Below are positions 2,780-26,476 of a stretch of 26,476 nt of DNA, piece by piece. Location: IMG/VR virus record IMGVR_UViG_3300002835_000933, positions 1 through 26,476 of that record; one strand, written 5' to 3'. Every line of letters begins with the position of its first letter. The stretch's first letter is position 1. This stretch comes from a virus. A model generated the notes under the pieces. The model worked only from the letters and a program-made list of their open reading frames with translations, was not told the origin of the DNA and made no database searches. Made by a program: the position numbers and the translations under genes.

Positions 2780-3556
2780 TTATTCTCCCCAATGTTTTTG
2801 TCTTAATTCGTACATATCGATAGCCTCTCTTTTCATCTGATTTCCGGTATGAAAATATGCACCTTCTTTAAGATACCCACCTAAGAAATTTCTTCTCATT
2901 CTCGTGGTATCTCCGTTTGGTTCACTACCATGTACTACGTGTGAGTGTAAAAGGGCAACTTGTCCTTTTTTAAGATATCCCTCAACCTTACGGAAATCGT
3001 GGCCTTCTGGCATTACACAACTCTTACCTCTTTCACTTCTCCAGTTATCAGTATTTGTTGCTTTTCTCTCTTCGTTATCTTCAATTGGTAATGTAGGTAA
3101 TCGGTGAGAACCTTCGTAGTTCCATACTGCCCCATTTTCAGGGTCGTGATTATCCAAAGCCAACGCAGTATTGATAATTTCATTATGACCACAACCAGTA
3201 TAGAATGCGTTTTGATGCATATCTCTACCCAATTCACCTTTTGGTTTGTAATAACCCCAAGTTTGTAAACCCACTACACTCCCTTCCATTAGGAATTCTG
3301 CTGCTTCCATAATTTTTGGATGTGAAAATAATTTAGCAATTTTTTCTGAATCTCTATGTGGATACATAATAGGTTCAAACTCTTGCCATTTTCCTGGTTC
3401 TCTTTCATTACGTTCTACACGTAAACGGTCTAATTCTTCGTTGATTTCATCTACTTCAGTTTCAGTTAATAATTCCAAAACTGTGAAGCCTCGGTATCTC
3501 CAATCAAATGACATTTGTTGAAGTTCTTCCGTTGTAAGGTGTTTGTATTTTTGCAT
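2780..3556 (-). CDS. Phytanoyl-CoA dioxygenase (PhyH)-like Fe(II)/2-oxoglutarate oxygenase
   Basis: 258 residues, a normal length for the family. Visible landmarks: MHQNAFY (113-119) where the first metal ligands lie, DPENGAVWNYEGSHR (138-152) matching the family's 'e-N-G-x-x-x-x-x-G-S-H' block, and HVVHGSEPN (206-214) with H209 as the expected distal His, followed by R219/R221/R222 for 2-oxoglutarate. The family hydroxylates small molecules or side chains using Fe(II), O2 and 2-oxoglutarate. Oddly, the usual H-x-D reads H114-Q-N116, with Asn in place of the Asp ligand. The gene has its own TATATTTATA element 15 bases upstream and a terminator downstream, so it looks like a single-gene unit next to the baseplate genes. 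Related genes are known in marine phages; the substrate is unknown. Confidence 0.8.
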   Translation of the reverse strand: MQKYKHLTTEELQQMSFDWRYRGFTVLELLTETEVDEINEELDRLRVERNEREPGKWQEFEPIMYPHRDSEKIAKLFSHPKIMEAAEFLMEGSVVGLQTWGYYKPKGELGRDMHQNAFYTGCGHNEIINTALALDNHDPENGAVWNYEGSHRLPTLPIEDNEERKATNTDNWRSERGKSCVMPEGHDFRKVEGYLKKGQVALLHSHVVHGSEPNGDTTRMRRNFLGGYLKEGAYFHTGNQMKREAIDMYELRQKHWGE

Positions 3557-13422: not shown

Positions 13423-13911
13423 TTAGAATTCAAGTATTGCATAATCATAAGCTAACGTTAATGTAATCTCTGCAGGGTCATTTGATGTCCAATCTAACTC
13501 ACCGAATTGTGCGTTTAAGATAAATGCACCTTTAAGTTTCCAGTTTTCAATTTTATCACCTACTGGTCCTAACATATAGATATCGATATCTTTTTTGTAG
13601 AAATCTGCATATCCATCACGTCCTGTTAGGGATTCATGTGAAGTTCTAACCCACTCCATTACTGCCTGTGCACCTGATGGTACGATTGGGTCATATAATG
13701 TGATTTCTAAATCTTGCCATTCACCTTTACCTTTCAACTTTCTTTTTAAGTTGATGTGTTCTAATGTTACAGCTTCAAACTGAATGTTTGGTCTGTTACC
13801 TGCTTTGATAAGATATGAAGGGATACCAGCGATTTCCATGATGAAACGATTTTTCATCTTTGGTTCAAAGTTGGTATAGAACATTTCGTTAAACTCTAAT
13901 ATTTCTGCCAT
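13423..13911 (-). CDS. 19: Tail tube protein (gp19-like)
   Basis: 162 residues, almost the same length as T4 gp19 (163). The N-terminus (FEPKMKNRFIMEIAGIPSYL), the centre (WQDLEITLYDP) and the C-terminus (FGELDWTSNDPAEITLTLAYDYA) follow the pattern of T4-like tube subunits, which stack as hexamers to form the inner tail tube. It lies directly downstream of the sheath gene. It has a strong RBS, AGGAG, 8-12 bases before the ATG. A near-copy of the ten-base element (TATATTTATT) is 22 bases upstream. Two in-frame stops, TAA TAG, end it, followed by a strong terminator. These fit very high, separately controlled expression. Confidence 0.93.
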   Translation of the reverse strand: MAEILEFNEMFYTNFEPKMKNRFIMEIAGIPSYLIKAGNRPNIQFEAVTLEHINLKRKLKGKGEWQDLEITLYDPIVPSGAQAVMEWVRTSHESLTGRDGYADFYKKDIDIYMLGPVGDKIENWKLKGAFILNAQFGELDWTSNDPAEITLTLAYDYAILEF

Positions 13912-13965: not shown

Positions 13966-16278
13966 TTATGCTGAGAACGATGCTCCAGTCGGTAAGATAT
14001 TGAAATCTAACACGATGAATTCAGCGGTTTTTGTTGGTTGTAAGAAAATCTGTCCAGCCAATATATTTCTATCAATTACATCAGGAGTGTTATTACTCTC
14101 ATCCATTATTACTCTAAATGCATATAAACCTTGTCTTTGTTGAATTGCTTCTAAATAAGGGTTAACTGTATTTAAGAATCTTGAACGAGTGGTAGAAGTA
14201 TTTTGTTCGAATACTAAGTATCTTGATGTAGAAGCGATATACTTCTTAACTTTGATAAGTAATCTTCTAACATTGATTCTGTCTAACGCTGATGATTTTT
14301 CTTGTAATGTTTTCTGTCCAAATGCCACGATACCCTCGCCAGGGAAAGATGCGATAGGATTTATTTTTCCTTCGTATAATGTATCTCTCTCTGCGTGTGT
14401 TAATCTATTCAATACTGAAACTGCTCCTACGATTCCACCACGATTTAAACCAGCTGGTGCGAACCATTCTGCTGCAACCGCGTCATTTGCTGCGAAAATA
14501 CCTGGCATCAATACTGATGGCGGTACTGCAGTTAATCTGTTGGTGTTTCTATCGATTGTCTTTACCCACGGGTAGTAAGTACCTACATAGTTAGAATCTA
14601 CTGCTGCACCTTGTTCTACTGCTAAATCAATTGAATCATCTTGTGAAGTTACATCACCAATGAAGAATACATCTTCTCTATTCTCACACATTTCAGTTAT
14701 GTAATCAAACACATAAGAGTGATGTCTACGAACTATACCAGGTGCTGCGATTATGTTGATATCGAAATCATCAGGGTTAGATACCGCGTTGATTGCTTTT
14801 ACATATGCAACTGAACCACTTGAGATTGATGTTGCTAAGTTAAATCCTTGTGAATTACCTGATGATAAATCAGAACCTTTACTTGCTACTCTTGTTGGAG
14901 TTACACCATCAAATCCACCTTGAAACGCTAAAGTAAATTGTCTTTTAGCAATTGTTTCAGCAGTATCATCAGTTGATAATGTATAATTTAATTGAGAATC
15001 AAACGCAAAATCAACATTAGCACCTACTGTTGCTGATGATGGAATTGGTTTTAAGTATTGTAAGTTGTTTATCTTAGTTGTAGCAGTTTCTAAATCAATA
15101 CCAGAATATCTATATGTAGATGATGCGGTATTACTATCAGAAACTGTTGAATAAATAACTGCTGGAACTAATGTTTCAGTCCCACCCACATAAATTGGGT
15201 TGGTATATGCACCATGTCCAAAAGGTGCTGCTATAATAGGGAATGAACCCTCAGCTGCAACTTCTACTCTAATTAACTTAGAACGATTTGCATAATCACC
15301 ATTTTCATTTTGTTTACCATTTGCATCAATTGTTAAATTTCTATCACCAATTATTTTAGCAATATAGTTTGGAGATGCTGGGTCTAAGTTAACGTTATTA
15401 TATGTTTCTTTTACTGATTTTTTTCTATCTGTATCACTAAATCCACGAACTACTACTGAGAATGTTGCGTAATCAGTTGCACCAGATACTCCTGCTGCTT
15501 TAACATTAAAAATACTTACTTTATATTCAGTATTGTATGGGTTACCATCACCTAATGTATGGAAACGGAATAGGTCACTTCTAACACCACTAATTAATTG
15601 AGATTTAACCCACGGAGTAGATGCGTATGTTGTATCTTCAGTAAAAGCTTGTGTTGCTAATTCTAATATTTCAACATCTGCAGATGAACTTGCAAATGCA
15701 TCCGTTTTATCTGTTGCTGTTTTTTCAAAATAAGTGTAGGTGTATACCGATTTAGCTCCAAATGGTGATTCACCAAATACATCACTAATATCGTTTCCAT
15801 CTATTGGTAATACTGATGCAGAAACTGCACTTGAACCACTAACTATTATGGAAAAACTACTTGCACCTATCGGTGATGTAATTGTGGATGATGCAAAACC
15901 TGTACTTTCTTTATTACCAGTTAAGGTTGAATGTAAGGTTGCTACAATTTTTTTACCACCTTGTACTTCTGAACCACTTACTACAATTGCAAGAGGTGTT
16001 TCATGCGAATAACCACCTATGTGACCAACACGAACAATTGTTGCTGTTCCTGCTTCTCTTAGATAGTTTTGTACTGCGTACCCTGTATAGTATTCCCCAT
16101 CAGGTGTACCGAATATTTCTTCAAATTCTGATTGTGTATTTACGATAGTTGGTAAGAATGCTGGTCCTTTACTAAAAGGTCCTACTATTGCTGCTCCAAT
16201 TTCTCCGATACCCTGTGATAAAAATGATAAATCATTCTCTCTTGTGAATACACCAGGTGATACAATTTTTTCTGCCAT
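13966..16278 (-). CDS. 18: Tail sheath protein (gp18-like)
   Basis: 770 residues from the chosen start. VSPGVFTREND at the N-terminus and the C-terminal block (RINVRRLLIKVKKYI, then FLNTVNPYLEAIQQRQGLYAFRV and an I-F-L-Q-P-T-K-T-A-E-F motif) are the sheath signatures; the C-terminal domain carries the strands that interlock neighbouring subunits. It is longer than T4 gp18 (659), with Ser/Thr/Ala-rich material in the middle (about 105-400) that would lie on the outside of the tail. I chose the ATG at 16278, not 16314: AGGAG lies 8 bases upstream and the protein then starts MAEKIVSPG like homologues. The tube gene follows after 54 bases. Confidence 0.95.
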   Translation of the reverse strand: MAEKIVSPGVFTRENDLSFLSQGIGEIGAAIVGPFSKGPAFLPTIVNTQSEFEEIFGTPDGEYYTGYAVQNYLREAGTATIVRVGHIGGYSHETPLAIVVSGSEVQGGKKIVATLHSTLTGNKESTGFASSTITSPIGASSFSIIVSGSSAVSASVLPIDGNDISDVFGESPFGAKSVYTYTYFEKTATDKTDAFASSSADVEILELATQAFTEDTTYASTPWVKSQLISGVRSDLFRFHTLGDGNPYNTEYKVSIFNVKAAGVSGATDYATFSVVVRGFSDTDRKKSVKETYNNVNLDPASPNYIAKIIGDRNLTIDANGKQNENGDYANRSKLIRVEVAAEGSFPIIAAPFGHGAYTNPIYVGGTETLVPAVIYSTVSDSNTASSTYRYSGIDLETATTKINNLQYLKPIPSSATVGANVDFAFDSQLNYTLSTDDTAETIAKRQFTLAFQGGFDGVTPTRVASKGSDLSSGNSQGFNLATSISSGSVAYVKAINAVSNPDDFDINIIAAPGIVRRHHSYVFDYITEMCENREDVFFIGDVTSQDDSIDLAVEQGAAVDSNYVGTYYPWVKTIDRNTNRLTAVPPSVLMPGIFAANDAVAAEWFAPAGLNRGGIVGAVSVLNRLTHAERDTLYEGKINPIASFPGEGIVAFGQKTLQEKSSALDRINVRRLLIKVKKYIASTSRYLVFEQNTSTTRSRFLNTVNPYLEAIQQRQGLYAFRVIMDESNNTPDVIDRNILAGQIFLQPTKTAEFIVLDFNILPTGASFSA

Positions 16279-16309
16279 TTTATTTACTCCTATTAAGTTT
16301 GTGTAATGA

Positions 16310-16319
16310 TACACATATA
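16310..16319 (-). promoter_or_regulatory. Degenerate ten-base element before the sheath gene
   Basis: Coding strand TATATGTGTA, eight of ten matches to TATATTTATA, 31 bases before the ATG at 16278. Weakest member of the set. Confidence 0.3.
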
Positions 16320-16370: not shown

Positions 16371-16640
16371 TTATTCCGCGATTGGTGTGAATTCTCCCGT
16401 TGTAGGGTTGTAATCACCATCTCCGTATTTTTCATTTAAACCTTTAAATAAGGTTTCTTCTTTGATAACTAAATCCGAATGTTGTTTAGTTAATTCTATT
16501 TCTCTTTCTTCTAATTCTGACAATCTTCTTCTTTTTTCAATATGAATTTGTCCTAATTCAGTAAAAACAGCCCCAACTTCAATTCTTAATTCGTTGATTT
16601 GTTTGACCTCGTCTTCTGTAAACTTAATTTTTTCTGCCAT
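16371..16640 (-). CDS. Small coiled-coil phage protein upstream of the sheath
   Basis: 89 residues. A long charged helix with heptad-like spacing covers about 8-71 (LSELEEREIELTKQHSDLV), followed by a conserved-looking tail YGDGDYNPTTGEF. I recall similar small proteins in marine T4-like phages, without known function. It has its own TATATTTATA element (33 bases upstream) but no SD. Its first five codons (ATGGCAGAAAAAATT) are identical to those of the downstream sheath gene. It may be a minor virion or assembly protein, by position only. Confidence 0.75.
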   Translation of the reverse strand: MAEKIKFTEDEVKQINELRIEVGAVFTELGQIHIEKRRRLSELEEREIELTKQHSDLVIKEETLFKGLNEKYGDGDYNPTTGEFTPIAE

Positions 16641-16708: not shown

Positions 16709-17977
16709 TTATCTAGTAAATGTTAAAGTTGCATATGTTCCTGGAAGACCTTGGTCTATAGCTCTAACTCTTGCATACCATGTTCCTGCGGTTAATAGGG
16801 TGTTAACTTCTATATTCGCTTCACTCCATTCCGTAAAATTAATAGTAGGAGCTGAAAAGTCTGCATTTGCTGAAACTTGTACATCATATGCGGTAATACC
16901 AGCAGTTCCTACTGCCGTAGGTGCTACCCATGTTAAGAAAGGTGTTGCGTAGGTAAGAGAAGTTGGTGCACCTGGTGATGCTAAATCTGCGAATGAGTTT
17001 CCACCCTTATTGTGGGTTACATATCCATTTACTAAATAAGTATCCTCTTCTTCAACGTCAATTGATACAATTTCACTTGTTTTTACTACAACTTCGTTTG
17101 AATTAATTATTTTTTCAACTAAAACTCCACCTTCTGCTTTTAGTAATTTGTCATCGGTTGTAATTCTAAATATTTCTTTAAATTTATATAATCCATCTTC
17201 ACCATCTTTTACTAATAATGGATGTTCTGATGTTGCTGTTATTTCTCCATCATTAATATCATAATATTTTGATGAAAATGAGTATACTAATCCAACTACG
17301 GTTACTTCTTTTTCTGAGGTAACCAATTCATTTGTATTCCATGTATAAAACCCACCATCTAAATCTGGTGATAATCCATTTAATGAATACCCTTTTAATT
17401 TATCACCCTCTACTAAATCTCCTGCCTCAACTATTGAACCATCTGCTAAAGTAATAGGTGAATCAATTGTTAAACATAACGCGGTAGAGTTACCATCATA
17501 TGAATCTACGGAATAAACCGTTTTATCTTTATTTGTATTATATCCAGTAACGTGGTCGTTAAACCCATCAACAAATACACATCTAATCGTATTAGATTGT
17601 GCAGACATTAATGCTGTTTGAGCTCCTGGTGATTGTGGATTCATACTAGAAATTGAAAAAGTAGCAGTTACACCACTATTTGTTCCTAATGTTATATATG
17701 AACCTGCAGGAACACTCCATGTGAAGTTTGCTGCTCTACTACTAATTCTACCAAAATTTGCACCATCACCTGTAAAACCTAATGTATAAGTTTCGGTTGT
17801 AGATTCAACTGCGTAAGTGTATCCGGTTACAGACCCTACTGAATCAATTGCAAATGATGACATTGCTATGGGGCCAGTTGTATCTCCCTTAGCTGCTGAT
17901 AATGATTTTGTACCCTGTCCTGTTGCAGAACCTAAACTATTTAAACTTAGTGTATCGCCTGATGTTAGTGTTGCCAT
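16709..17977 (-). CDS. Fibre/adhesin protein with Hint (intein-like) self-processing domain and fibronectin III domain
   Basis: 422 residues. Residues 1-167 are beta-rich with phage-tail-like repeats (SLNSLGSATGQG). A Hint domain covers 168-323. It has C168 at the splice-type N-terminus (CLTIDSPITLADGS), block B T249-x-x-H252, and the C-terminal YLVNGYVTHN with H322-N323. No homing-endonuclease insert is present. Residue 324 is Lys, not Cys/Ser/Thr, so ordinary protein splicing is unlikely; Asn cyclisation and C-terminal cleavage, or N-terminal thioester chemistry, remain possible as in bacterial intein-like domains. About 334-422 resembles a fibronectin III domain (SPGAPTSLTYATPFLTWVAP, GTWYARVRAID). 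It follows the glycosyltransferase by 11 bases, with its own promoter-like element and RBS (AATAGGAAT). Likely a virion surface protein. Confidence 0.8.
   Translation of the reverse strand: MATLTSGDTLSLNSLGSATGQGTKSLSAAKGDTTGPIAMSSFAIDSVGSVTGYTYAVESTTETYTLGFTGDGANFGRISSRAANFTWSVPAGSYITLGTNSGVTATFSISSMNPQSPGAQTALMSAQSNTIRCVFVDGFNDHVTGYNTNKDKTVYSVDSYDGNSTALCLTIDSPITLADGSIVEAGDLVEGDKLKGYSLNGLSPDLDGGFYTWNTNELVTSEKEVTVVGLVYSFSSKYYDINDGEITATSEHPLLVKDGEDGLYKFKEIFRITTDDKLLKAEGGVLVEKIINSNEVVVKTSEIVSIDVEEEDTYLVNGYVTHNKGGNSFADLASPGAPTSLTYATPFLTWVAPTAVGTAGITAYDVQVSANADFSAPTINFTEWSEANIEVNTLLTAGTWYARVRAIDQGLPGTYATLTFTR
17009..17476 (-). other. Hint domain, Cys168 to Asn323
   Basis: 156 codons from the conserved Cys to the His-Asn pair: about the size of a minimal intein without endonuclease. 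The next codon (17008-17006) is Lys, then Gly-Gly. Confidence 0.8.
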
Positions 17978-17988
17978 TTATTTTATTC

Positions 17989-18987
17989 CTATTTGTTATA
18001 AATATCTAATAATGAATCAATCCACTTATTCTTATCCGTATATTTTTCAATCATATAAGTTTTTATAGTATTGAACCAATATAATTTTTCAGAATAAGGT
18101 AATGTAGTAATCTTTGTATAAATATCAAAAAATTCAGTTTTAGACGATACTCGATATGGATAATTTAAATCTTTACACCATGTGGTATGTAATATTGGTA
18201 ATTTACCCCTATCAACTGCTTCAAATATTGAATATCCAAAGGGTTCTGATATAAATGCGGAATGTGATATTCCCCAATCCATATCATAAAAAGTATCTTT
18301 AAACTCCGAATCATAATGATATAATTTTGATTTTGAAACATCTACCTTTACGCCATTTTTCCAAAGTAAATTAAATTCTTGTGAATTAGTAAAAATAAGA
18401 CTTGGTATTTTATCTAAATAGTGTGGATTTTTTCTACCTTCACTCCTTGCTGCGAATCCTAACTTATTAGATTTGGATAGTGGTAGATTCTTTTTAAATT
18501 CGTAAAAATTTGGTATATTGGTGTTTTTATAAAGTATTTCGTATAATCCTACCCATATATTATTCTCACACCAATCAGTAACCTCTTGTTCCCATTCTGA
18601 ACTCATATACGGATGATGTCCTATTGGTAAATCACTTCCAAATTGAGATTTTAGAATATGGTCTACTGAATTGTGTAATATATTTGAATGAATTTTATCT
18701 TTATTGTCTACAATCGGTTTCATTGGAGTATAATGTCCATGTAGAATATTAATTCTTCTAGCACCTTTACATAGTTCTTCAAATTTTTGAATATCTTCAC
18801 CATGCCAATAAGTTTCTATTGGAAATTGGTAATCTTCGTGTCCTTTGGGTTTGTTTCTATGAATAAGGAGAATTGGTTTAACATCTAATTTAGGTGCTAT
18901 TAATTCCATCCAAAGATTTACCCAAATATCAGAACCTGCGTTGACCCACGGCCCTCCACCTGTGGTATAATAAACATCATAAACCAT
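17989..18987 (-). CDS. GT-B-fold glycosyltransferase, GT4-like
   Basis: 332 residues. The N-terminus has a Gly-rich opening (YYTTGGGPWVNAGSD, 6-20), as in nucleotide-sugar transferases of the GT-B fold. GFAARSEGRKNPHYL (177-191) matches the donor-binding Arg/Lys segment, and E248-PFGYSIF-E256 is the E-x7-E signature of GT4-type enzymes. Family members transfer a sugar from a nucleotide donor to an acceptor. It begins 5 bases after the stop of the 624-residue fibre gene, so the two are probably translated together, and is followed by the Hint-domain gene. Glycosylation of the Ser/Thr-rich fibre proteins is a reasonable inference; host surface sugars are another candidate substrate. No membrane segment is visible. 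Confidence 0.75.
   Translation of the reverse strand: MVYDVYYTTGGGPWVNAGSDIWVNLWMELIAPKLDVKPILLIHRNKPKGHEDYQFPIETYWHGEDIQKFEELCKGARRINILHGHYTPMKPIVDNKDKIHSNILHNSVDHILKSQFGSDLPIGHHPYMSSEWEQEVTDWCENNIWVGLYEILYKNTNIPNFYEFKKNLPLSKSNKLGFAARSEGRKNPHYLDKIPSLIFTNSQEFNLLWKNGVKVDVSKSKLYHYDSEFKDTFYDMDWGISHSAFISEPFGYSIFEAVDRGKLPILHTTWCKDLNYPYRVSSKTEFFDIYTKITTLPYSEKLYWFNTIKTYMIEKYTDKNKWIDSLLDIYNK
17997..18006 (-). promoter_or_regulatory. GATATTTATA element before the Hint-domain gene
   Basis: Nine of ten matches to TATATTTATA; 19 bases before the ATG at 17977, overlapping the 3' end of the glycosyltransferase gene, followed by AATAGGA. Confidence 0.4.
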
Positions 18988-18992
18988 TTATA

Positions 18993-20867
18993 TTATTTTT
19001 TTATTATAATTAATCCAGCAAATACTCCAGCAAAAGTTATACTCAATGCATTAACCGAAGTTGATTCTATAATTGAAGGAACTTCCTGTCTTTTATTGGC
19101 AGTATTCCATGCTTGAACTATTGGATATTCTTCATTTAAACTATGTGTAATTGAATAAGTTGAATTACCACTAACTGTTTCCTTATATGTTGTTAATGCA
19201 GTTATTTGTGAAGAACCACTCACTAATCCACTTGGCGTTCCTGCTAAGTTAGCAAATGAAGTAGAACCACTTACTATATGACCACCTTTAGCAACTACTG
19301 CGTATCCACTTTGAGCGGATGATAATATTATTGTTGCAGTATTGTTATTAGTAAGGGTTACCGATGATGGTATTATTTGTGAATCATTTGTTCCATATAC
19401 TGAAACTAATACATTTTTAGTATTAAAGTTGTGTGTTACCGAAATAGTTGATTGTGTATCAAACGAAGATGTAACTGTTGCTACTTCTGCAATTTCAGTT
19501 ACTACGTTTGTAATACCACTACCATCTCCAACAAAGTATGATGCAGTGATTGCACCATTTGCTAAATTAATTGATTGACTTACTAATGATGACAGAATTT
19601 GGGTAGAAGATGATACGATATTACTTCCACCTAATATTTGGATTGACCCGGATATTAATGTTGGTAATGAACTAATTCCACTAAAAGTAATTTGAGATGA
19701 ACCTGATACAACGTTATCACCACTAGCAAGTAATATTTTTGATTCAGACCCACTTATTCCACTTTTCCAATAATCATTAGTTGAATCCCAAAGTAATGAA
19801 CCACTAATAGTAGAACCACCGGTTGAATCTTTTACTAATAACCCACCATTTGCTACACCTGTACCATTCAATTCAATAATATTATCACCTAATTGAATTG
19901 TAGTTGAATTTACGGAGGTTGTTGTTCCTCTAACTATTAAATCACCTAATACCACTACATTCGAACCTGTCAATTCTAAAGCGGTTTTGAGGGAGGATGT
20001 ATATGTGTTTAAAGATGCGGTTGATTCTTGTATTCTATCTAACTCATTATCAATTGAAGCAGTATAAGTTGTAAGGGTTGAGTTCTTAGTATCTTGTGAT
20101 TGTGTATACGAATTTAATGAACTCAATATACTAACTATCTGAGATGAACCACTTACTAACCCGCTTGGTTTATTTGTATGATTTGTATAATCTAAATAGT
20201 ATGAACCGGATTCGCCATTTAATTTATTTGAATCATCTGCAGAACCACTAACAATGTGGCCACCTTTAGCAACTACTGCATAACCACTTTGAGCGGAAGT
20301 TAATACTATTGTTGCAGTATTTAAATCCGTAAGAGTTACTGATGATGGGATTATTTGTGCATAATTAGAATCGTATACCGAAATAATTACATTTCGTGAA
20401 TTAAAATTATGACTAACTGATATGTTTGAGGAATTGAAAAAAGCGTAATTAACAGTTGCTACTTGAGATATATCTGATGCAGGTAAATTTGTTAATCCAC
20501 TTCCATCTCCACCAAATGAACCAGTGAAAGAACCACTAATAGTTCCTTCACCTAATGTATTTAAATATCTTGAATCTAATGAGGATGTTAATTGTGATGA
20601 ACCGGAAACCATTCCAGTCCCACCGAATGTTATTTGAGAACCATTTCCTATGAAATATGAAGCGGTTATGGCACCATTAATATTAAGAGAACCTGTTATT
20701 AGGGCATCTGTAACTACAATTGTTTGAATTGATGGTATTCCGTTATCTTTTTCAAAATATAACTTACCATCGTATGTATTTATCGCCAACTCTCCTAATT
20801 CAAGAGTGTCGGTTGTAGGAATTTTACCCTGAACAGCTGTTCTTTTTAGCTTTAATACTTGTGCCAT
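18993..20867 (-). CDS. Tail fibre protein with Mtd-like N-terminal domain and repeated beta modules
   Basis: 624 residues. The N-terminus (LKLKRTAVQGKIPTTDTLEL, then GELAINTYDGKLYF) is a common phage-fibre attachment-type domain, similar to the N-terminal domain of the major tropism determinant. It is followed by VSGSSQ-type repeats, two copies of a 75-residue beta module (about 135-212 and 460-540; each ends AQSGYAVVAKGGHIVSGS), a GDNIIELNGTGVANGGLLVK segment shared with the fibre gene at the right edge, and a degenerate third beta module as the C-terminus (ending GLIIIKK). There is no S74 chaperone domain, so trimerisation must rely on other parts. A terminator lies upstream; the glycosyltransferase follows 5 bases downstream. 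Receptor binding is inferred. Confidence 0.8.
   Translation of the reverse strand: MAQVLKLKRTAVQGKIPTTDTLELGELAINTYDGKLYFEKDNGIPSIQTIVVTDALITGSLNINGAITASYFIGNGSQITFGGTGMVSGSSQLTSSLDSRYLNTLGEGTISGSFTGSFGGDGSGLTNLPASDISQVATVNYAFFNSSNISVSHNFNSRNVIISVYDSNYAQIIPSSVTLTDLNTATIVLTSAQSGYAVVAKGGHIVSGSADDSNKLNGESGSYYLDYTNHTNKPSGLVSGSSQIVSILSSLNSYTQSQDTKNSTLTTYTASIDNELDRIQESTASLNTYTSSLKTALELTGSNVVVLGDLIVRGTTTSVNSTTIQLGDNIIELNGTGVANGGLLVKDSTGGSTISGSLLWDSTNDYWKSGISGSESKILLASGDNVVSGSSQITFSGISSLPTLISGSIQILGGSNIVSSSTQILSSLVSQSINLANGAITASYFVGDGSGITNVVTEIAEVATVTSSFDTQSTISVTHNFNTKNVLVSVYGTNDSQIIPSSVTLTNNNTATIILSSAQSGYAVVAKGGHIVSGSTSFANLAGTPSGLVSGSSQITALTTYKETVSGNSTYSITHSLNEEYPIVQAWNTANKRQEVPSIIESTSVNALSITFAGVFAGLIIIKK
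19264..19488 (-). repeat. Fibre beta module, copy B
   Basis: Second copy inside the same 624-residue gene; the 3' portion is nearly identical to copy A at nucleotide level as well. Bounds are approximate. Confidence 0.7.
20240..20464 (-). repeat. Fibre beta module, copy A
   Basis: About 75 codons (VSHNFNSRNVIISVYDSN, IIPSSVTL, then AQSGYAVVAKGGHIVSGS). Repeated at 19264-19488 and, more divergently, in the 214-residue gene. Bounds are approximate. Confidence 0.7.
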
Positions 20868-20910: not shown

Positions 20911-20940
20911 AAAAACCCCCTTTATGTAAAGAGGGGTTTT
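20911..20940 (-). terminator. Hairpin terminator after the S74 fibre gene
   Basis: Coding strand AAAACCCC and GGGGGTTTT arms, extended by CTTTA/TAAAG pairing with one bulged base, followed by a T-run. It lies about 16 bases after the stop at 20956. The stem is flanked by A/T on both sides and could also act on the other strand. Confidence 0.85.
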
Positions 20941-20955
20941 ATATGTCTTTTTTAT

Positions 20956-22257
20956 TTAGATTTTGTTTTCTAGAGAATTTACTTTAGAAGTTAAATCATC
21001 AATTTGTTTTTGTTGTTCTTTAATACCTTCTATTAATAAGGTTACTAATTTATCGTATTTAACTGCTTTGTATCCGTTTTCTCTTGTCTGAACTAATTGA
21101 GGTAATACTGCTTCAATTTCTTGTGCAATTACACCCACATCGTTTCCTTCGTATCCGTGCTCAGCTTTAGTTTCTGCTTTCCAATCGTAAGTGTTACCAC
21201 TAATCTTAGAAATCTTATCCAATGCGTTTTCGATTGGAACGATATTTTCTTTGAAACGAATATCTGAAGATGAGTAAGCAACGATATCATTGGTTGCATC
21301 AATTCTACCTGCAGTAGCAGATGCGGCCATTCCTATTCCTAAAGAAGTTGCAGTTGCTGCACCTATTATTGTATGTGAACCACTAACTTGTACTGAACCA
21401 GTGAATGAATGTGTATCGTTACTGAAATCACCAAATCTATTAGAACCACTACTGAATATAACTGATGCCGTTTCATTAATTGTTGTTAAATTAACAATAG
21501 TTAAATCTGTAATAGTAGTTCCACTCAATTGAGATGAACCAGAAACAATTCCTGCTGGTATTGAACCAACACTAGCATAAGTTATTTGAGATGAACCCGA
21601 AACTACACCATTAGTTGCGTTGATTGTACCATTAAATGATGTACCATTGAAAGTTGTACCTGTTATAGTACTATTTGAAGTAATCGAACCAGTTACTAAT
21701 AAATCATTTCCAAATACTATATTAGTTCCACCTGAACTTAAAAATTTAGATGTACCATCTTGCATGCTAACATTTCCTTTAACGGAAATTAAACCAGCAG
21801 TTGGGTCTAATAATATATCACCACCACCTGAAGATTTTAATTCAATGTCTCCATCGGCAGTTTGAAGTACAATATTATCAGTACCTAATTCGTTAAATTT
21901 AATTGATTGACCGGTGTCGGTTGTAAATATTAATTCTGTTGCATTTGATGATAATATTTGTGTTCCAGCTATGTAAAGTGATGCTGAAGATAGGTATAAA
22001 TCACGAAATGGTTTAGTTGCACTACCTAAATCTACGGTTAATGTAGTAGGTATTATATGTTTAGAAGTAGTTACCGAATCAGTACTTTGTGAAAATGGAG
22101 TACCATTAACAGTATTAAACTGAACTTGTGATGAACCACTTATTACACCATTTGTTGATGCAATTGAACCTGTAAACGCACCACCAGTTGGTAAGGTGAA
22201 AGTTGCACCATCTGCGAATGTTAGTGAACCTGAAATTATGGGACTATGTATTATCAT
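20956..22257 (-). CDS. Tail fibre protein with C-terminal peptidase S74 chaperone domain
   Basis: 433 residues. It begins abruptly with fibre repeats (SPIISGSLTFADGATF) and has no N-terminal attachment domain. VSGSSQ repeats and Gly/Ser/Thr-rich strands fill about 1-320. The last 103 residues are an intramolecular chaperone of endosialidase (S74) domain: S331-D-I-R-F-K336 carries the Ser and Lys expected for self-cleavage, followed by GNDVGVIAQEIEAVLP and a C-terminal coiled coil (EQQKQIDDLTSKVNSLENKI). Such domains assemble fibre trimers and then cut themselves off before the Ser. The gene has a TATATTTATA element 24 bases upstream and an AAGGA RBS. It may work together with the 214-residue attachment-type protein just upstream. 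Confidence 0.85.
   Translation of the reverse strand: MIIHSPIISGSLTFADGATFTLPTGGAFTGSIASTNGVISGSSQVQFNTVNGTPFSQSTDSVTTSKHIIPTTLTVDLGSATKPFRDLYLSSASLYIAGTQILSSNATELIFTTDTGQSIKFNELGTDNIVLQTADGDIELKSSGGGDILLDPTAGLISVKGNVSMQDGTSKFLSSGGTNIVFGNDLLVTGSITSNSTITGTTFNGTSFNGTINATNGVVSGSSQITYASVGSIPAGIVSGSSQLSGTTITDLTIVNLTTINETASVIFSSGSNRFGDFSNDTHSFTGSVQVSGSHTIIGAATATSLGIGMAASATAGRIDATNDIVAYSSSDIRFKENIVPIENALDKISKISGNTYDWKAETKAEHGYEGNDVGVIAQEIEAVLPQLVQTRENGYKAVKYDKLVTLLIEGIKEQQKQIDDLTSKVNSLENKI
20959..21267 (-). other. Peptidase S74 (ICD) domain, copy 1
   Basis: From the predicted catalytic Ser to the C-terminus; the central part is almost identical to copy 2 (22931-23233). Confidence 0.85.
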
Positions 22258-22299: not shown

Positions 22300-22944
22300 T
22301 TAAATTGAACCACCATCTATGTTTGTAATTGTTGTTGCATTTGCTGTTCCTGTCACATCTCCACTCAAAGTTATTTGAGCCGAACCACTAAATACACCAA
22401 GTACATTTACTTGATTTGTTACAGCCGTACTTAATCCAGTAACATTACCGGAATCAATCGAACCACTAACTATATGACCACCTTTTGCTACAACTACATA
22501 ACCACTTCTAGCAGATTCAAATGTAATTGTTATATTATTATTATCGGTATGTCTTAATGTTGATGGGATTATTTGGTATCCATCAGTATCAAACACTTGT
22601 GCAATTGCGTTAGGTGTACTCAAATTATGATTTACAACCCACGTAGATGATGCAGTAAATGTTCGTTGAACTGTTGCCGTTTGAGCAATTGTTACGTTTT
22701 CTAATGCACTACCATCACCTTTAAAGTACGAAGCGGTAATTGAACCAGTTATATTAAGGTTACCCGCTATAGCAGTTGCAGTATTAGTTGTTACTAATGT
22801 TTCTACGGAATCAACTGAACCGGATTTTCTAAAGAATACCTTTCCGTCTACAACGTTCATTGCTATCTCACCATATTGTAATGAGCCAGTGGTAGGTATA
22901 CTTCCAGGTGTAGTGGACCTTTTAAATTTAATTATTTGTGCCAT
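22300..22944 (-). CDS. Short tail-fibre protein with Mtd-like N-terminal domain
   Basis: 214 residues. The N-terminus (IIKFKRSTTPGSIPTTGSLQ, then YGEIAMNVVDGKVFFRKSG) matches that of the 624-residue fibre. One beta module follows (about 85-160, ending ARSGYVVVAKGGHIVSGS), then a short Gly/Thr-rich tail. It overlaps the end of the preceding fibre gene by 17 bases, so is probably translated by coupling. It looks like the attachment half of a fibre, with the distal half encoded by the next gene. It could instead be a complete small adaptor. There is no chaperone domain. Confidence 0.75.
   Translation of the reverse strand: MAQIIKFKRSTTPGSIPTTGSLQYGEIAMNVVDGKVFFRKSGSVDSVETLVTTNTATAIAGNLNITGSITASYFKGDGSALENVTIAQTATVQRTFTASSTWVVNHNLSTPNAIAQVFDTDGYQIIPSTLRHTDNNNITITFESARSGYVVVAKGGHIVSGSIDSGNVTGLSTAVTNQVNVLGVFSGSAQITLSGDVTGTANATTITNIDGGSI
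22465..22689 (-). repeat. Fibre beta module, copy C
   Basis: More divergent copy of the module at 20240 and 19264 (VNHNLSTPNAIAQVFDTDG, ending ARSGYVVVAKGGHIVSGS). Bounds are approximate. Confidence 0.6.
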
Positions 22945-25900
22945 TATTTTCTACTTTTGTTTTTAGTTCGTCTACTTGTTTTGTTAATTCTTTAATACCT
23001 TCTATTAGTAATGCTACTAACTTATCATATTTAACCGCCTTATAACCATTTTCACGGGTTTGAACCAATTCTGGTAATACTGCTTCGATTTCTTGTGCAA
23101 TTACACCCACATCGTTTCCTATATAAGTATTCTGTATTTCGCTATTCCATACAAAATTATAGCCACCAATTTTAGATATTTTTTCTAATGGATTAGAAAT
23201 AGGGCGAATATTGTTTTTTAATCTTATATCTGATGATGAATATGCAATAATATCACCGCCTGCATTTATACTACCACCCAATCCAATACCACCTGTTATT
23301 ACTAATGCACCCGTACCAGTTGTGATTGATGCAGTAGCATTTGTAATTGTAATTGCGTTTGATGTAGATGCACCTTGAGTAGTTACTTCTTGTAATGTTT
23401 TACTTACTTGTGATGAACCGGATATAACACCATTAGATGCTGATATTGCCCCATTAAATGATGTTGCTGTTGATGCACCTGTTATTTCGATTGAACCTGT
23501 TATTTTAACCGAACCTGTAAATTCATGTGTATCATTATTAAAGTCACCGAATTTATTTGAACCACTACTGAATATAACTGATGCGGTTTGATTAACACTC
23601 GTTAAGTTTGTTATAGTAAGATTTGCTATAGTAGTTCCATCTAATTGTGAAGAACCACTTACTATTCCAGCTGGGATAGAACTAATACCTGCATATGTTA
23701 TTTGAGAACTTCCACTTACCAATCCGCTTCCACCAAATAGTTGAGATGAACCTGATACAATTCCTCTACCTGTTGTTTCGTAGGATGAAGTTGCACCATT
23801 TAAATTTGAAATATGTGAATCAATCGATGCCGTATAAGTAGCAAGAGTTGAATTCTTAGTATTTTGTGAAGATGTATATGAGTTTAGTGATGTTAATGGA
23901 ATTAATCTAGCATCAACACCATTTGTGAAATGTGCAGAACCAGTATCTAATGTAAGAGTAGCTGAACCACTTTCAGCACCACCACTTAAACCATTACCCG
24001 CATTGACTGCAGTAATATCACCCGCTCCAGCCAATACCATTGCATCATCTACATATTCTTTAATAGCAAATGCGTTTCCTAATGTATTTGGATTACCATC
24101 TGCAATTGAAGATGATACGTGATAAAATGCTGCTGAGCCTAATGATGCTAATGTATTTGCACCTAATAGGGTGGCAAAAGATGCAGATGGTGCATATAAT
24201 AAATTATATGAACTTGATAATTGATTTGAACCACTAACTACACCAGTTGGTAATAATGATGGTATCTGTGAAGAACCACTAACTATGCCCGCCGGGATTG
24301 ATGTTAATGATGTATATACTACTTGAGATGAACCACTAACTACACCGGTTGGTAATAATGGAGTTACTTGAGAACTACCACTAATAATACCTGCGGAAAT
24401 TGATGATATATCACTATATGTTATTTGTGAACTACCACTAACTACACCGGTTGGTAATAATGATGCTATTTGTGAACTACCACTTATAATCCCATTACCT
24501 CTTGTTTCGTAAGATGAAGTTGCATTAATTAAAGATGCGGTTACATTTGATAATGTATCCCATTTTGTATCATTTGAACCACTATATGTTCCTAACGTTG
24601 TATTTTTAGTATCTTGTGAACCAGTATAAGAATTTAAATCACTTAATATACTTACGATTTGTGCAGATGATGAAACTACTGAATCACCATCAATCATTAA
24701 ATATCTTAAATCCAATGAACCTGTTACTTGTTGAGAACCACTTACTACGCCTCCTGGTAATAATGAAGTCACTTGTGCGGATGATGAAACTATCCCGTCT
24801 CCTCCAGCTAAAAGTATTTTTGATTCTAAATCTTTTTTACCACCTATCCAATAATCATTAGTTGAATCCCATAATAGAGAACCACTAATAAAAGAAGCAG
24901 CAGTGGGGTCTTTAACTAACAAACCACCATTTGCTACACCAGTACCATTTAATTCGATGATATTATCACCCAATACAATTGCAGTTGAATTAATTGATGT
25001 TTGTGTTCCTTCAACTATTAAATTTCCTTTAATCGTTGTAGTTGATGCCGCGTTTTCGCCAGTAACAGTTATTGCATTTTTTAAAGATTGGGTATACGAT
25101 AATACTGATGCAGATACATTTAATAGGGTTTCCCATTTAGTATCAACTGAACCGGTATATGTTCCTAATGTTGTATTTTTAGTATGTTGTGAACCGGTGT
25201 AAGAATTTATTTCCGTTATAGATATATCAACCGATGCCGATTTACTTTCTAAATTATCTAAACGAATATTACTTGAACCAGATGTTGTTTCTAAATTAGA
25301 TAATCTAATCAATGCACTACTACTAAACGTATTAAGTGATGCGGATGTAATTTCCAATTTATCCAACCTACCATCTAAACTTCCACTAATTGTATCAACA
25401 TATGTTTTAACTGCAAATTGAGTTGGAACTGTATCTTCACCTGTAATTCCTTGTGCGTTTAATAAAGTTGTGTTATTACTAACTTCATTTAATACAACAC
25501 CCACACCTACTCCATTTCTTTTGAATGGGCCGATTGCACTTAATCCTGATAGATTGAATTGATTTGCGTCAATTGTAACTTCTCCGGTTAATTGATTTAC
25601 TGCGAAGAAATCACCAATTTTTAAATTACCTATATTGTCAACTGTTGAATAAAATACTCTACCTGGAGCATATTCAACAATTTCTTTTGTTCTATTTGGA
25701 ACTCCACCGAATTTTGGAAGTGCGTTATATGTTACACCACTACCAACATATTCCATTACTAATCCACCCGTTGAGATGTTTGATAATTGGTGGAAATAAA
25801 CATTATTTCCAGTTGTAATTGAAGGTGGTGCAGGATAAACTGTTACATATCTTTCATTTGCCGAACTACCCGTTGCAACATTTGTTACTAAATAGTCAGT

Positions 25901-26476
25901 TCCGTTTAAAATCATATTTGAAGAAACATCCACACCTCTACTTCCACTTTCTAATTGGAATAATATTGCGGCAATACCACTAATATTTGCTTTACCTGCA
26001 ATTGTTGTAGCTTGAATTGCACCTGCACCTGTTGGTGCTGCTATTACAACATTTGGTTGAGATGTATATCCACTACCAGGAGTTAAAATTACAATTTCAT
26101 TAATTGAACCATTTGCATTAACAGTTGCTTCTGCAGTTGCTTGAACACTTGCTCCTCCGCCACTAATAGTCACACTTGCAACTGAACCCGTATAACCTGC
26201 TCCGTCTTGGTCAATAACGGCACCAACTACTGTGGATGTCAATGTTTGTAACGATGAGCCCGAATTATATGTTTGAGGGAAATATGTTTTAGATACTAAT
26301 CCTTCTTTACCAAAATCTATTACTGAATTTGAAATATTTGCAAAACCACCATTCGCTACTTTGAAACCATAAGTACAGAATGTAGTAAAGCAAGATACAA
26401 ATTGTGCATATCCTTTATTGATTACCAAGTGACCAGGTCCACCCTGATTAACTTGAGTAAATGCATCTGCTACAAA
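22928..26476 (-). CDS. Large tail fibre protein with C-terminal S74 chaperone domain, N-terminus outside the window
   Basis: Partial: the frame is open to the right edge, giving 1182 visible residues; the TTG at 26428 is not a real start. In order: a segment typical of T4-like fibre/beta-helix proteins (QFVSCFTTFCTYGFKVANGG); Gly-rich repeats (GSGYTSQPNVVI); a stretch close to cyanophage-type fibres (NIGNLKIGDFFAVNQLTGEV, FNLSGL); the GDNIIELNGTGVANGG module shared with the 624-residue fibre; about a dozen VSGSSQ-type repeats including a 34-residue tandem array; and an S74 domain (SSSDIRLK, then GNDVGVIAQEIEAVLPELVQ) with a short coiled coil. The S74 domain probably drives trimerisation and is then cleaved off. 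The next fibre gene starts 17 bases before its end. Confidence 0.85.
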   Translation of the reverse strand, partial: FVADAFTQVNQGGPGHLVINKGYAQFVSCFTTFCTYGFKVANGGFANISNSVIDFGKEGLVSKTYFPQTYNSGSSLQTLTSTVVGAVIDQDGAGYTGSVASVTISGGGASVQATAEATVNANGSINEIVILTPGSGYTSQPNVVIAAPTGAGAIQATTIAGKANISGIAAILFQLESGSRGVDVSSNMILNGTDYLVTNVATGSSANERYVTVYPAPPSITTGNNVYFHQLSNISTGGLVMEYVGSGVTYNALPKFGGVPNRTKEIVEYAPGRVFYSTVDNIGNLKIGDFFAVNQLTGEVTIDANQFNLSGLSAIGPFKRNGVGVGVVLNEVSNNTTLLNAQGITGEDTVPTQFAVKTYVDTISGSLDGRLDKLEITSASLNTFSSSALIRLSNLETTSGSSNIRLDNLESKSASVDISITEINSYTGSQHTKNTTLGTYTGSVDTKWETLLNVSASVLSYTQSLKNAITVTGENAASTTTIKGNLIVEGTQTSINSTAIVLGDNIIELNGTGVANGGLLVKDPTAASFISGSLLWDSTNDYWIGGKKDLESKILLAGGDGIVSSSAQVTSLLPGGVVSGSQQVTGSLDLRYLMIDGDSVVSSSAQIVSILSDLNSYTGSQDTKNTTLGTYSGSNDTKWDTLSNVTASLINATSSYETRGNGIISGSSQIASLLPTGVVSGSSQITYSDISSISAGIISGSSQVTPLLPTGVVSGSSQVVYTSLTSIPAGIVSGSSQIPSLLPTGVVSGSNQLSSSYNLLYAPSASFATLLGANTLASLGSAAFYHVSSSIADGNPNTLGNAFAIKEYVDDAMVLAGAGDITAVNAGNGLSGGAESGSATLTLDTGSAHFTNGVDARLIPLTSLNSYTSSQNTKNSTLATYTASIDSHISNLNGATSSYETTGRGIVSGSSQLFGGSGLVSGSSQITYAGISSIPAGIVSGSSQLDGTTIANLTITNLTSVNQTASVIFSSGSNKFGDFNNDTHEFTGSVKITGSIEITGASTATSFNGAISASNGVISGSSQVSKTLQEVTTQGASTSNAITITNATASITTGTGALVITGGIGLGGSINAGGDIIAYSSSDIRLKNNIRPISNPLEKISKIGGYNFVWNSEIQNTYIGNDVGVIAQEIEAVLPELVQTRENGYKAVKYDKLVALLIEGIKELTKQVDELKTKVENNGTNN
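22931..23233 (-). other. Peptidase S74 (ICD) domain, copy 2
   Basis: Predicted catalytic Ser codon at 23233-23231 in SSSDIRLK, with the Lys five residues later, as in copy 1. Confidence 0.85.
24229..24534 (-). repeat. 34-residue (102-base) tandem repeat in the large fibre gene
   Basis: Copies begin at about 24231, 24333 and 24435 (plus-strand CCACTAACTACACC then GTTGGTAATAATG), spaced exactly 102 bases. Each unit holds two VSGSSQ half-units joined by a Y-x-x-I-S-S-I segment and an LLPTG segment. More degenerate copies flank the array. Confidence 0.75.

Follow-up and report, generated by a model that had tools for sequence, protein, structure and literature searches.

A probable GT-B glycosyltransferase gene in the tail module of an aquatic phage group, beside an adhesin slot that turns over

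To our knowledge, sugar has been demonstrated on the virions of only a few phages. According to the sections considered of the relevant papers, mycobacteriophages of the Che8 group encode glycosyltransferases (GTs) and carry sugar on virion proteins (PMC11256854, PMC12691614, PMC12619734; Freeman et al. 2023, cited therein). The locus described here resembles theirs in having a phage-encoded glycosyltransferase, in our case putative; the sugar described for the mycobacteriophages is on the capsid and tail tube, whereas the neighbours of our GT are tail adhesins and a protein with a Hint domain. Moraphages, which the sections considered of PMC12619734 present as large aquatic T4-related phages with predicted Bacteroidota hosts, are alike in phage type and in having putative GTs, an annotation given to four orthogroups of their core; the adhesin-GT-Hint arrangement is not described in those sections, and the titles and abstract openings of the open-licence papers listed by our searches yielded no description of it either. 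Large phages such as cyanophages and jumbo phages also group several GTs, epimerases and methyltransferases in glycan clusters, as do the phages studied here; in the parts of PMC7824862 considered, such clusters are read as serving host-surface modification, whereas ours lie near fibre modules, and the GtrA and Wzx families were found in none of the 10 records searched.

The tail locus and its conservation

The stretch of DNA analysed, 26,476 nt (the window), carries the following features around the GT gene.

13423..13911, minus strand: tail tube (gp19-like), 162 aa; ORF adjoining the sheath gene, strongly conserved in relatives, its gp19 label taken from the equivalent Mel-JY01 gene
13966..16314, minus strand: tail sheath, 782 aa; PHROG tail sheath, E 9.4e-70
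16371..16640, minus strand: 89-aa protein in the gap between Hint and sheath genes; position kept in relatives
16709..17977, minus strand: Hint-domain tail protein, 422 aa; ORF, 3' of the GT gene in relatives
17009..17476, minus strand: Hint domain, residues 168-323 (Cys168 to Asn323); coordinates derived from the ORF
17989..18987, minus strand: putative GT-B glycosyltransferase, 332 aa; ORF and AlphaFold model
18993..20867, minus strand: 624-aa SGSSQ-type fibre occupying the swappable adhesin slot; ORF with weak PHROG structural matches and 4 SGSSQ
20916..20935, minus strand: terminator-like hairpin 5' of the 624-aa fibre gene; pattern scan
20956..22257, minus strand: 433-aa fibre with Peptidase_S74 chaperone domain; Pfam PF13884, E 7e-18; 3 SGSSQ
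22300..22944, minus strand: 214-aa fibre-like protein; PHROG tail-fibre N-terminal matches
22928..26428, minus strand: large fibre with Peptidase_S74; Pfam PF13884, E 7.5e-16; 9 SGSSQ; the 5' end lies past the edge of the window, and the ORF is longer in the relative L009

The sequence-only reading had the GT start 5 nt after the fibre gene and precede a Hint-type ORF, and the ORF coordinates bear this out: fibre and GT genes share the minus strand, and 11 nt separate the GT stop from the Hint start. A hairpin like that upstream of the fibre gene occurs in 25 of the 43 scorable gaps of relatives. A scan for sigma-70 promoters returned fewer sites than shuffled sequence (31 vs 51.6) and was not used as evidence.

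Whether relatives keep the fibre-GT pairing had been set as a test of the original proposal. In the clade containing the window's own GT (the window clade, as distinct from a paralog clade of diverged copies), the position is held, the GT starting no more than 20 nt from the preceding same-strand ORF at 57 of 58 distinct loci, but the identity of the adhesin varies: the preceding ORF belongs to one related fibre group at 49 of these 58 loci and is something else, mostly lectin-like, at the other 9. GTs that are still 71-80% identical stand beside adhesins that lack both similarity to the 624-aa fibre and SGSSQ. On the other side of the GT the Hint gene follows directly at all 64 distinct loci. 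Sheath and tube genes lie beyond it. The adhesin-GT-Hint order persists during adhesin turnover.

We also drew an unbiased sample of relatives with the tail tube as anchor, in two scans each taking the best 80 of about 596. Of the 100 distinct contigs obtained, 48 were dropped for having less than 2.9 kb before the sheath gene (neither gene in view in 37, both in 6, Hint only in 5) and one for lacking a sheath gene; among the 51 scored, GT and Hint genes were both present in 28 and both absent from 23, with no discordant case. On the sheath tree this joint presence and absence amounts to one change (branch support 78), and so we place more weight on a rearranged relative and on the paralog. 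Absence of the GT from the GT-negative contigs (sets of 5 and 12) is weak evidence, since all are fragments; a scan of genome contigs gave 40 pattern stretches and a scan with the GT of LR756508 gave four, none of which was confirmed.

LR756508, a 484-kb phage, is the rearranged relative: its GT and Hint genes are still adjacent, in reversed order, with the sheath gene about 76 kb away. A second GT copy is present in five of the eight GT-positive records, near a second fibre module; genes for a methyltransferase, a GT and Glyco_transf_7 come after it. It is an old paralog within a glycan-enzyme cluster; these clusters hold an epimerase and several GTs. In the paralog clade a giant fibre-like protein is encoded ahead of the GT at only 22 of 49 distinct loci; the preceding ORF can also code for an enzyme.

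The putative glycosyltransferase and the Hint-domain protein

In sequence searches the window's GT matched no PHROG, exceeded no Pfam cut-off and had no credible counterpart in the PDB, and none of the 58 family members exceeded the cut-off for a Pfam GT family (best E-values only were compared); Glyco_transf_4 matched 3 of the 58 weakly (best E 0.0037), and small hits to Nitrophorin, G-alpha and tyr_de_CO2_C were taken as chance. The earlier assignment to GT-B, which sequence families left without backing, was upheld by the predicted structure. An AlphaFold model built from 58 related sequences (pLDDT 88.7, pTM 0.87) replaced a single-sequence model (pLDDT 32.7) and is predicted to form two Rossmann-like domains, the GT-B fold, with Foldseek and VIA matches spanning residues 1-332. 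Its best Foldseek match in the PDB has E 6.1e-9, to GT-B glycosyltransferases, and VIA Z scores among the 50 matches listed run from 19.0 to 23.1; some of the VIA matches are enzymes whose substrates are small molecules, lipids, teichoic acid or DNA. Sequence identity among the matches listed is 7-15%.

GT4-like members of the GT-B class are marked by an E-x7-E motif with Arg or Lys upstream. In the phage family R181, E183, R185, K186, N187 and E248 are present in all 58 aligned rows, as are H83 and H105; residue 256, the closing acid of E-x7-E, is E in 33, D in 23, N in one and Q in one, while LR756508 and the second copies carried by two records (G007, G008) have Q at the closing position. 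In its fold the phage GT is like GT4-type enzymes such as HepE, PimA, BshA, TarM and tll1591, and its basic stretch and E-x7-E-like motif, putative donor-site residues, resemble theirs; it differs from them in its low identity and in falling under the cut-off of every Pfam GT family. The gene is under purifying selection (dN/dS 0.067-0.184 in six comparisons), and its product reaches a maximum 19-residue mean hydrophobicity of 0.96, that is, it has no long hydrophobic segment. It is probably a soluble GT-B glycosyltransferase, to judge from the model, coded among tail genes.

In the neighbouring protein the N-terminal Cys (C168), the block-B His (H252) and the terminal His-Asn (H322, N323) of a Hint domain are the same in all 59 distinct proteins, as is K324 at position +1, while the Pfam Intein_splicing match (E 0.09) lies below cut-off. 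At all 87 junctions that could be read (88 proteins, of which one is truncated) Lys stands where splicing inteins have Cys, Ser or Thr at +1, and it does so too in L272-L274 and L035; canonical splicing is therefore not expected. The domain is like Hint domains of Hedgehog and of bacterial intein-like proteins in its Cys, His and terminal His-Asn and unlike them in its +1 Lys; in LR756508 it lies at the C terminus of its protein, as in Hedgehog. GT and Hint protein might even form one machine, the Hint domain cleaving the tail adhesin through a thioester and transferring the N-terminal piece of that adhesin to a sugar acting as nucleophile, though we consider this very unlikely. The nucleophile would be made by the GT or mounted by it on the fibre, and the machine would be a phage counterpart of Hedgehog cholesterol ligation, with an adhesin welded either to a glycan or to a fibre that is itself glycosylated.

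Possible targets of the enzyme

The fibre next to the GT is indeed rich in Ser and Thr, as had been remarked: they make up 28.2% of the 624-aa fibre. The corresponding share is 25.1-25.7% for the three remaining fibre ORFs, 23.0% for the Hint protein and 12.0% for the GT, and among ten other proteins compared it ranges from 8.0 to 18.6%. Of the two repeats that had been named, the first is borne out, SGSSQ occurring four times in this fibre (shuffle mean 0.007, maximum 1, in 1000 shuffles). The second, SLNSYTGSQ, does not occur as such in any of the four fibre ORFs, where we found near variants (SLNSYTQSQ in the 624-aa fibre; DLNSYTGSQ, EINSYTGSQ and SLNSYTSSQ in the 1166-aa ORF). SGSSQ repeats are not peculiar to the GT-adjacent fibre; besides those in the 1166-aa and 433-aa ORFs (nine and three) there is one SGSAQ in the 214-aa ORF. 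Tracts of at least eight Ser/Thr were rejected as a general acceptor, being rare in all locus sets scanned (paralog clade 2/62, window clade 0/98, GT-negative 0/23, fetched regions 1/8).

The GT most likely glycosylates tail proteins, a reading we hold with modest confidence; its gene is linked to virion structural genes, and its position, wedged between swappable fibre genes and a Hint tail protein, suggests a sugar on some part of the tail. We infer that the enzyme, co-transcribed late, would take a sugar from a nucleotide-sugar donor and pass it during assembly to tail adhesins (the Hint protein, whatever fibre or lectin fills the swappable slot, or the two together), where it might shield the virion or tune adsorption. 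The idea that it decorates virion fibres gains from the conserved tail-gene position but finds no support for its proposed acceptor, the VSGSSQ repeats of this fibre, since the GT is conserved beside adhesins without them. The neighbour that never varies is the Hint protein, not the fibre, and a fibre-like ORF precedes fewer than half of the paralog-clade GTs; both count against a fibre-specific acceptor. We slightly prefer the Hint protein to the fibre as acceptor because it is the unchanging partner.

Modification of host surface glycans, for receptor masking or superinfection exclusion, we consider unlikely. The clusters of large T4-like phages are so read in the parts of PMC7824862 considered, and the epimerase and several GTs of the clusters found here would suit such a role, but the window-clade GT lies between tail genes and lacks a long hydrophobic segment. 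Moreover, GtrA (PF04138) and Wzx-type Polysacc_synt (PF01943) were each found in none of 10 records, possibly incomplete, in searches of these two exporter families whose controls were positive in 7 of 14 genomes and in 13 of 14, and this counts against host-envelope modification. It is likewise improbable that the GT merely inherited its place by chance or convenience and has a target that has nothing to do with its neighbours, for instance the capsid, the tube or a small molecule. The co-occurrence of GT and Hint as one tree change would fit, as would two observations from the sections considered, that in mycobacteriophages capsid and tail tube carry the sugar (PMC12619734) and that the GT genes of Maravista lie apart from its capsid genes (PMC11256854); against it, the adjacent adhesin is swapped while GT and Hint remain, and their pairing survives the rearrangement in LR756508.

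We give little credence to glycosylation of phage DNA bases in the manner of T4 alpha-GT. The structure of that enzyme (1y8z, Z 19.1) does turn up among the VIA matches, but scores no better than dozens of others; a viral match, H6WG44, is named a DNA alpha-GT; and a thymidylate-synthase-family gene (PF00303, over cut-off), which may be an ordinary thymidylate synthase, is present in three of 10 records and absent from seven, one of them the 26-kb window itself, while the position of the GT in a tail module also speaks against this target. Fibre chaperones of T4-like phages often adjoin fibre genes, and residue 256 of E-x7-E varies, as might be expected of a catalytically dead GT-B fold serving as assembly chaperone or as a structural part of the fibre base; this too we find highly improbable, R181, K186 and E248 being present in all 58 rows and the would-be client being exchanged when the GT is not.

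Implications for the phage group

In a common aquatic phage group, then, exchange of the receptor-binding protein leaves in place the enzyme next to it, a conserved GT-B protein as yet unnamed that remains with the tail genes. Its duplicate marks a larger glycan cluster close to a second fibre module. Should the tail prove glycosylated, predictions of host range that use only the fibre sequence would overlook a layer, and the GT-Hint pair, being fixed, would lend itself to direct tests of tail-protein modification.

The putative glycosyltransferase within the tail region

The 26,476-base virus record resembles a T4-like tail region, encoded on the minus strand, in which the putative glycosyltransferase (GT) has these neighbours:

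22928-26428, minus strand: large fibre, running past the window edge
Between the large fibre and the 433-aa fibre, minus strand: fibre-like protein, 214 aa
Between the 214-aa protein and the 624-aa fibre, minus strand: Peptidase_S74 fibre, 433 aa
20916-20935: terminator-like hairpin with T-run, before the 624-aa fibre gene
18993-20867, minus strand: fibre, 624 aa
17989-18987, minus strand: putative glycosyltransferase
16709-17977, minus strand: Hint-type protein (Hint domain 17009-17476)
Between the Hint gene and the sheath, minus strand: 89-aa protein
13966-16314, minus strand: tail sheath
13423-13911, minus strand: tail tube, named by likeness of position

As the sequence-only reading had noted, GT begins 5 nt past the stop of the 624-aa fibre. 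Its own stop is separated from the Hint gene by 11 nt. A hairpin like the window's recurs in relatives, in 25 of the 43 gaps that could be scored, so that fibre through tube may form a single transcription unit. The closest match of the sheath is Microcystis phage Mel-JY01 (47.6% over 98%), followed by the 484-kb phage LR756508 and Flavobacterium phages. Downstream of the baseplate region lies a Phytanoyl-CoA dioxygenase-like gene (2780-3556, minus strand; PhyH, E 3.2e-16).

Searching with the GT protein gave 26 loci and with a diverged copy 61, 11 of them on contigs >100 kb; the alignment search supplied the best 80 of 189 confirmed relatives. LR756508 (484 kb; 35.8% identity) was the single carrier among 50,697 phage records, and the collection of bacterial and archaeal genomes yielded no confirmed carrier.

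Variable adhesins and a constant Hint partner

Dropping identical copies left 65 loci with a GT like the window's (the window clade), 58 of which have an ORF before GT. It lies on the same strand in all 58 and measures 238-926 aa where complete (n=51). The fibre-GT pairing is kept in relatives as to position, GT starting no more than 20 nt from the end of that ORF at 57/58 loci; one BLAST-linked fibre group occupies the slot at 49, nine falling outside it. Occupants from outside the group include Laminin_G_3 lectin-like proteins without SGSSQ, the Ser-rich repeat of the window fibres, at L026, L022, L079 (over cut-off) and L091 (below); at L054 the slot holds an S74-type fibre, judged by eye. 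Since GTs adjoining non-group adhesins are still 71-80% identical to the window GT, the enzyme is tied to the position and not to the sequence of this fibre.

Enrichment of SGSSQ in the 624-aa fibre is real (4 copies vs a shuffle mean of 0.007), but the repeat is common to several fibres, not peculiar to the one beside GT; Ser+Thr makes up 28.2% of that fibre, 25.1-25.7% of the three other fibre ORFs and 23.0% of the Hint protein. SLNSYTGSQ, also quoted, is absent from the window's fibre ORFs, where near variants are present.

The Hint protein directly follows GT in all 97 window-clade entries with a following ORF (64/64 without copies). A GT-independent sample anchored on the tail tube, from the best 80 of about 596 relatives per search, comprised 140 loci, 100 of them distinct; among the 51 of these that extend 2.9 kb or more before the sheath, GT and Hint occur together in 28, are both missing from 23, and never occur singly. 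Presence maps to a single change on the sheath tree (55 rows; support 78), so this co-occurrence weighs as one event. Stronger evidence for the pairing is the arrangement in LR756508, in which the Hint protein is encoded 70 nt upstream of GT, not downstream, and the best sheath match is about 76 kb off. SGSSQ was in view at 22/28 positive loci vs 0/23 negative ones.

The 23 negative loci (L216, L282, L283, L285 and 19 others) carry before the sheath an alternative fibre cassette adjoining a 123-149-aa ORF, without GT, Hint or SGSSQ; proteins inspected at four of them were long fibres rich in Tyr, Trp and Gly, plus an ORF of some 130 aa.

Hint residues C168, H252, H322, N323 and K324 are invariant in 59/59 distinct proteins, and in a set of 88 proteins, one of them truncated, Lys follows His-Asn at each of the 87 junctions that can be read, likewise in the large records G011-G013 and in LR756508. 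Hint domains with Lys at +1 are not expected to splice but may cleave or transfer; the domain here has all its catalytic residues but an invariant HN-K, and the protein should therefore not splice. Its C-terminal portion is not constant: the window's looks FN3-like by eye, that of G011 (L272:9879-11639) has no Pfam match and that of G012 (L273:8392-10119) is Laminin_G_3, the last two being swaps in large-phage proteins. In LR756508 the Hint domain itself is C-terminal.

Diverged copies in glycan clusters

GT of the diverged, paralog clade starts no more than 20 nt from the preceding ORF in 46/49 distinct loci, with a 4-nt overlap in 28. In 22/49 it encodes a giant fibre-like protein; elsewhere its place is taken by DUF5977 proteins, 2OG-Fe(II) oxygenases, further GTs or unclassified proteins, a looser neighbourhood than the window clade's. 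No Hint domain was found in 62 locus entries. The oxygenase genes directly before GT (L124:7083-7658, L117:6942-7994) could provide hydroxylation ahead of glycosylation. At 5/5 loci viewed, the cluster module's giant fibre gene has in front of it a short conserved ORF (57-61 aa) that runs on the other strand:

L110:2627-2812, minus strand: 57-61-aa ORF
L118:2598-2777, minus strand: the same
L122:2614-2793, minus strand: the same
L126:392-565, minus strand: the same
L163:1134-1313, minus strand: the same

A GT profile found copies in 8 of 13 records, two each in G007, G008, G011, G012 and G013, and none in the five records from GT-negative loci. In G011-G013 one copy stands in the order SGSSQ fibre-GT-Hint-sheath-tube, like the window's, and the other in a glycan cluster of paralog type. 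In G007 a gap of 79 nt divides the second copy from a preceding ORF of 717 aa that looks structural; in G008 the structural ORF and GT have two genes between them, one for a radical SAM protein and one of 314 aa. A protein encoded near the G008 cluster (L276:11044-12480, minus strand) also looks structural and contains tracts of 10-20 threonines.

Clusters at L110 and L118 encode Methyltransf_24, Glyco_transf_7 + Laminin_G_3 proteins and an epimerase, with matches below cut-off to a family-2 GT (27.0 vs 27.5 bits) and radical SAM (just under). Glyco_transf_7 (galactosyltransferase-like; L110:12820-16004, L118:12242-13648) is joined to Laminin_G_3 in 3/3 proteins scanned; the family occurs in 0/14 control genomes, and Glyco_transf_7N in 9/10 large records, G006 lacking it. 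A tree of 37 GTs sets Hint-context copies and LR756508, a long branch, apart from cluster copies (split support 97/92); the split is old, and the two contexts have been kept apart since.

Fold and probable acceptor

Sequence families gave GT no assignment as a glycosyltransferase, with weak Glyco_transf_4 matches in 3/58 relatives; the proposed GT-B fold was borne out by structure prediction. The model, built from 58 sequences (pLDDT 88.7, pTM 0.87), had 70 Foldseek matches in the PDB at E <= 0.001 (top tll1591, E 6.1e-9, TM 0.67), among them GlgM, HepE, PimA, BshA and the O-GlcNAc transferase GtfA; VIA-align Z was 19.0-23.1 among the 50 matches listed, T4 alpha-GT included. The predicted fold says GT-B but leaves the acceptor undecided. 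Residues H83, H105, R181, E183, R185, K186, N187 and E248 are identical in 58/58 aligned rows; residue 256, ending E-x7-E, is E in 33, D in 23, N in 1 and Q in 1, and is Q in the GT of LR756508 and, in G007 and G008, in the second copy. In GT4 enzymes such basic and E-x7-E residues bind the donor. dN/dS was 0.067-0.184 in six comparisons.

We lean towards a soluble putative GT-B enzyme that would add sugar to tail adhesins during assembly. Decoration of a virion fibre, as first proposed, is supported in part: it agrees with the conserved slot; the neighbours without SGSSQ speak against the 624-aa fibre's repeats as sole acceptor, which are still a possible substrate because SGSSQ can also occur in further fibres of those phages. 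Mycobacteriophage virions are reported to be glycosylated, according to the citing papers PMC11256854, PMC12691614 and PMC12619734; the last also describes moraphages, which have predicted Bacteroidota hosts and four core orthogroups annotated as putative glycosyltransferases.

The alternative that GT modifies host envelope or surface glycans draws on section 3.4.10 of PMC7824862, where clusters comparable to those here are ascribed to host-surface modification; we hold it unlikely, as GtrA and Polysacc_synt were each found in 0/10 records (possibly incomplete), the controls being positive in 7/14 and 13/14. That it glycosylates phage DNA is highly improbable: GT sits among tail genes, and a thymidylate-synthase-family gene, present in some records, occurs in only 3/10 (possibly incomplete). 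What is new, at the strength of these predictions, is an unnamed GT-B family kept at a tail-adhesin slot and paired there with a Hint protein not expected to splice.
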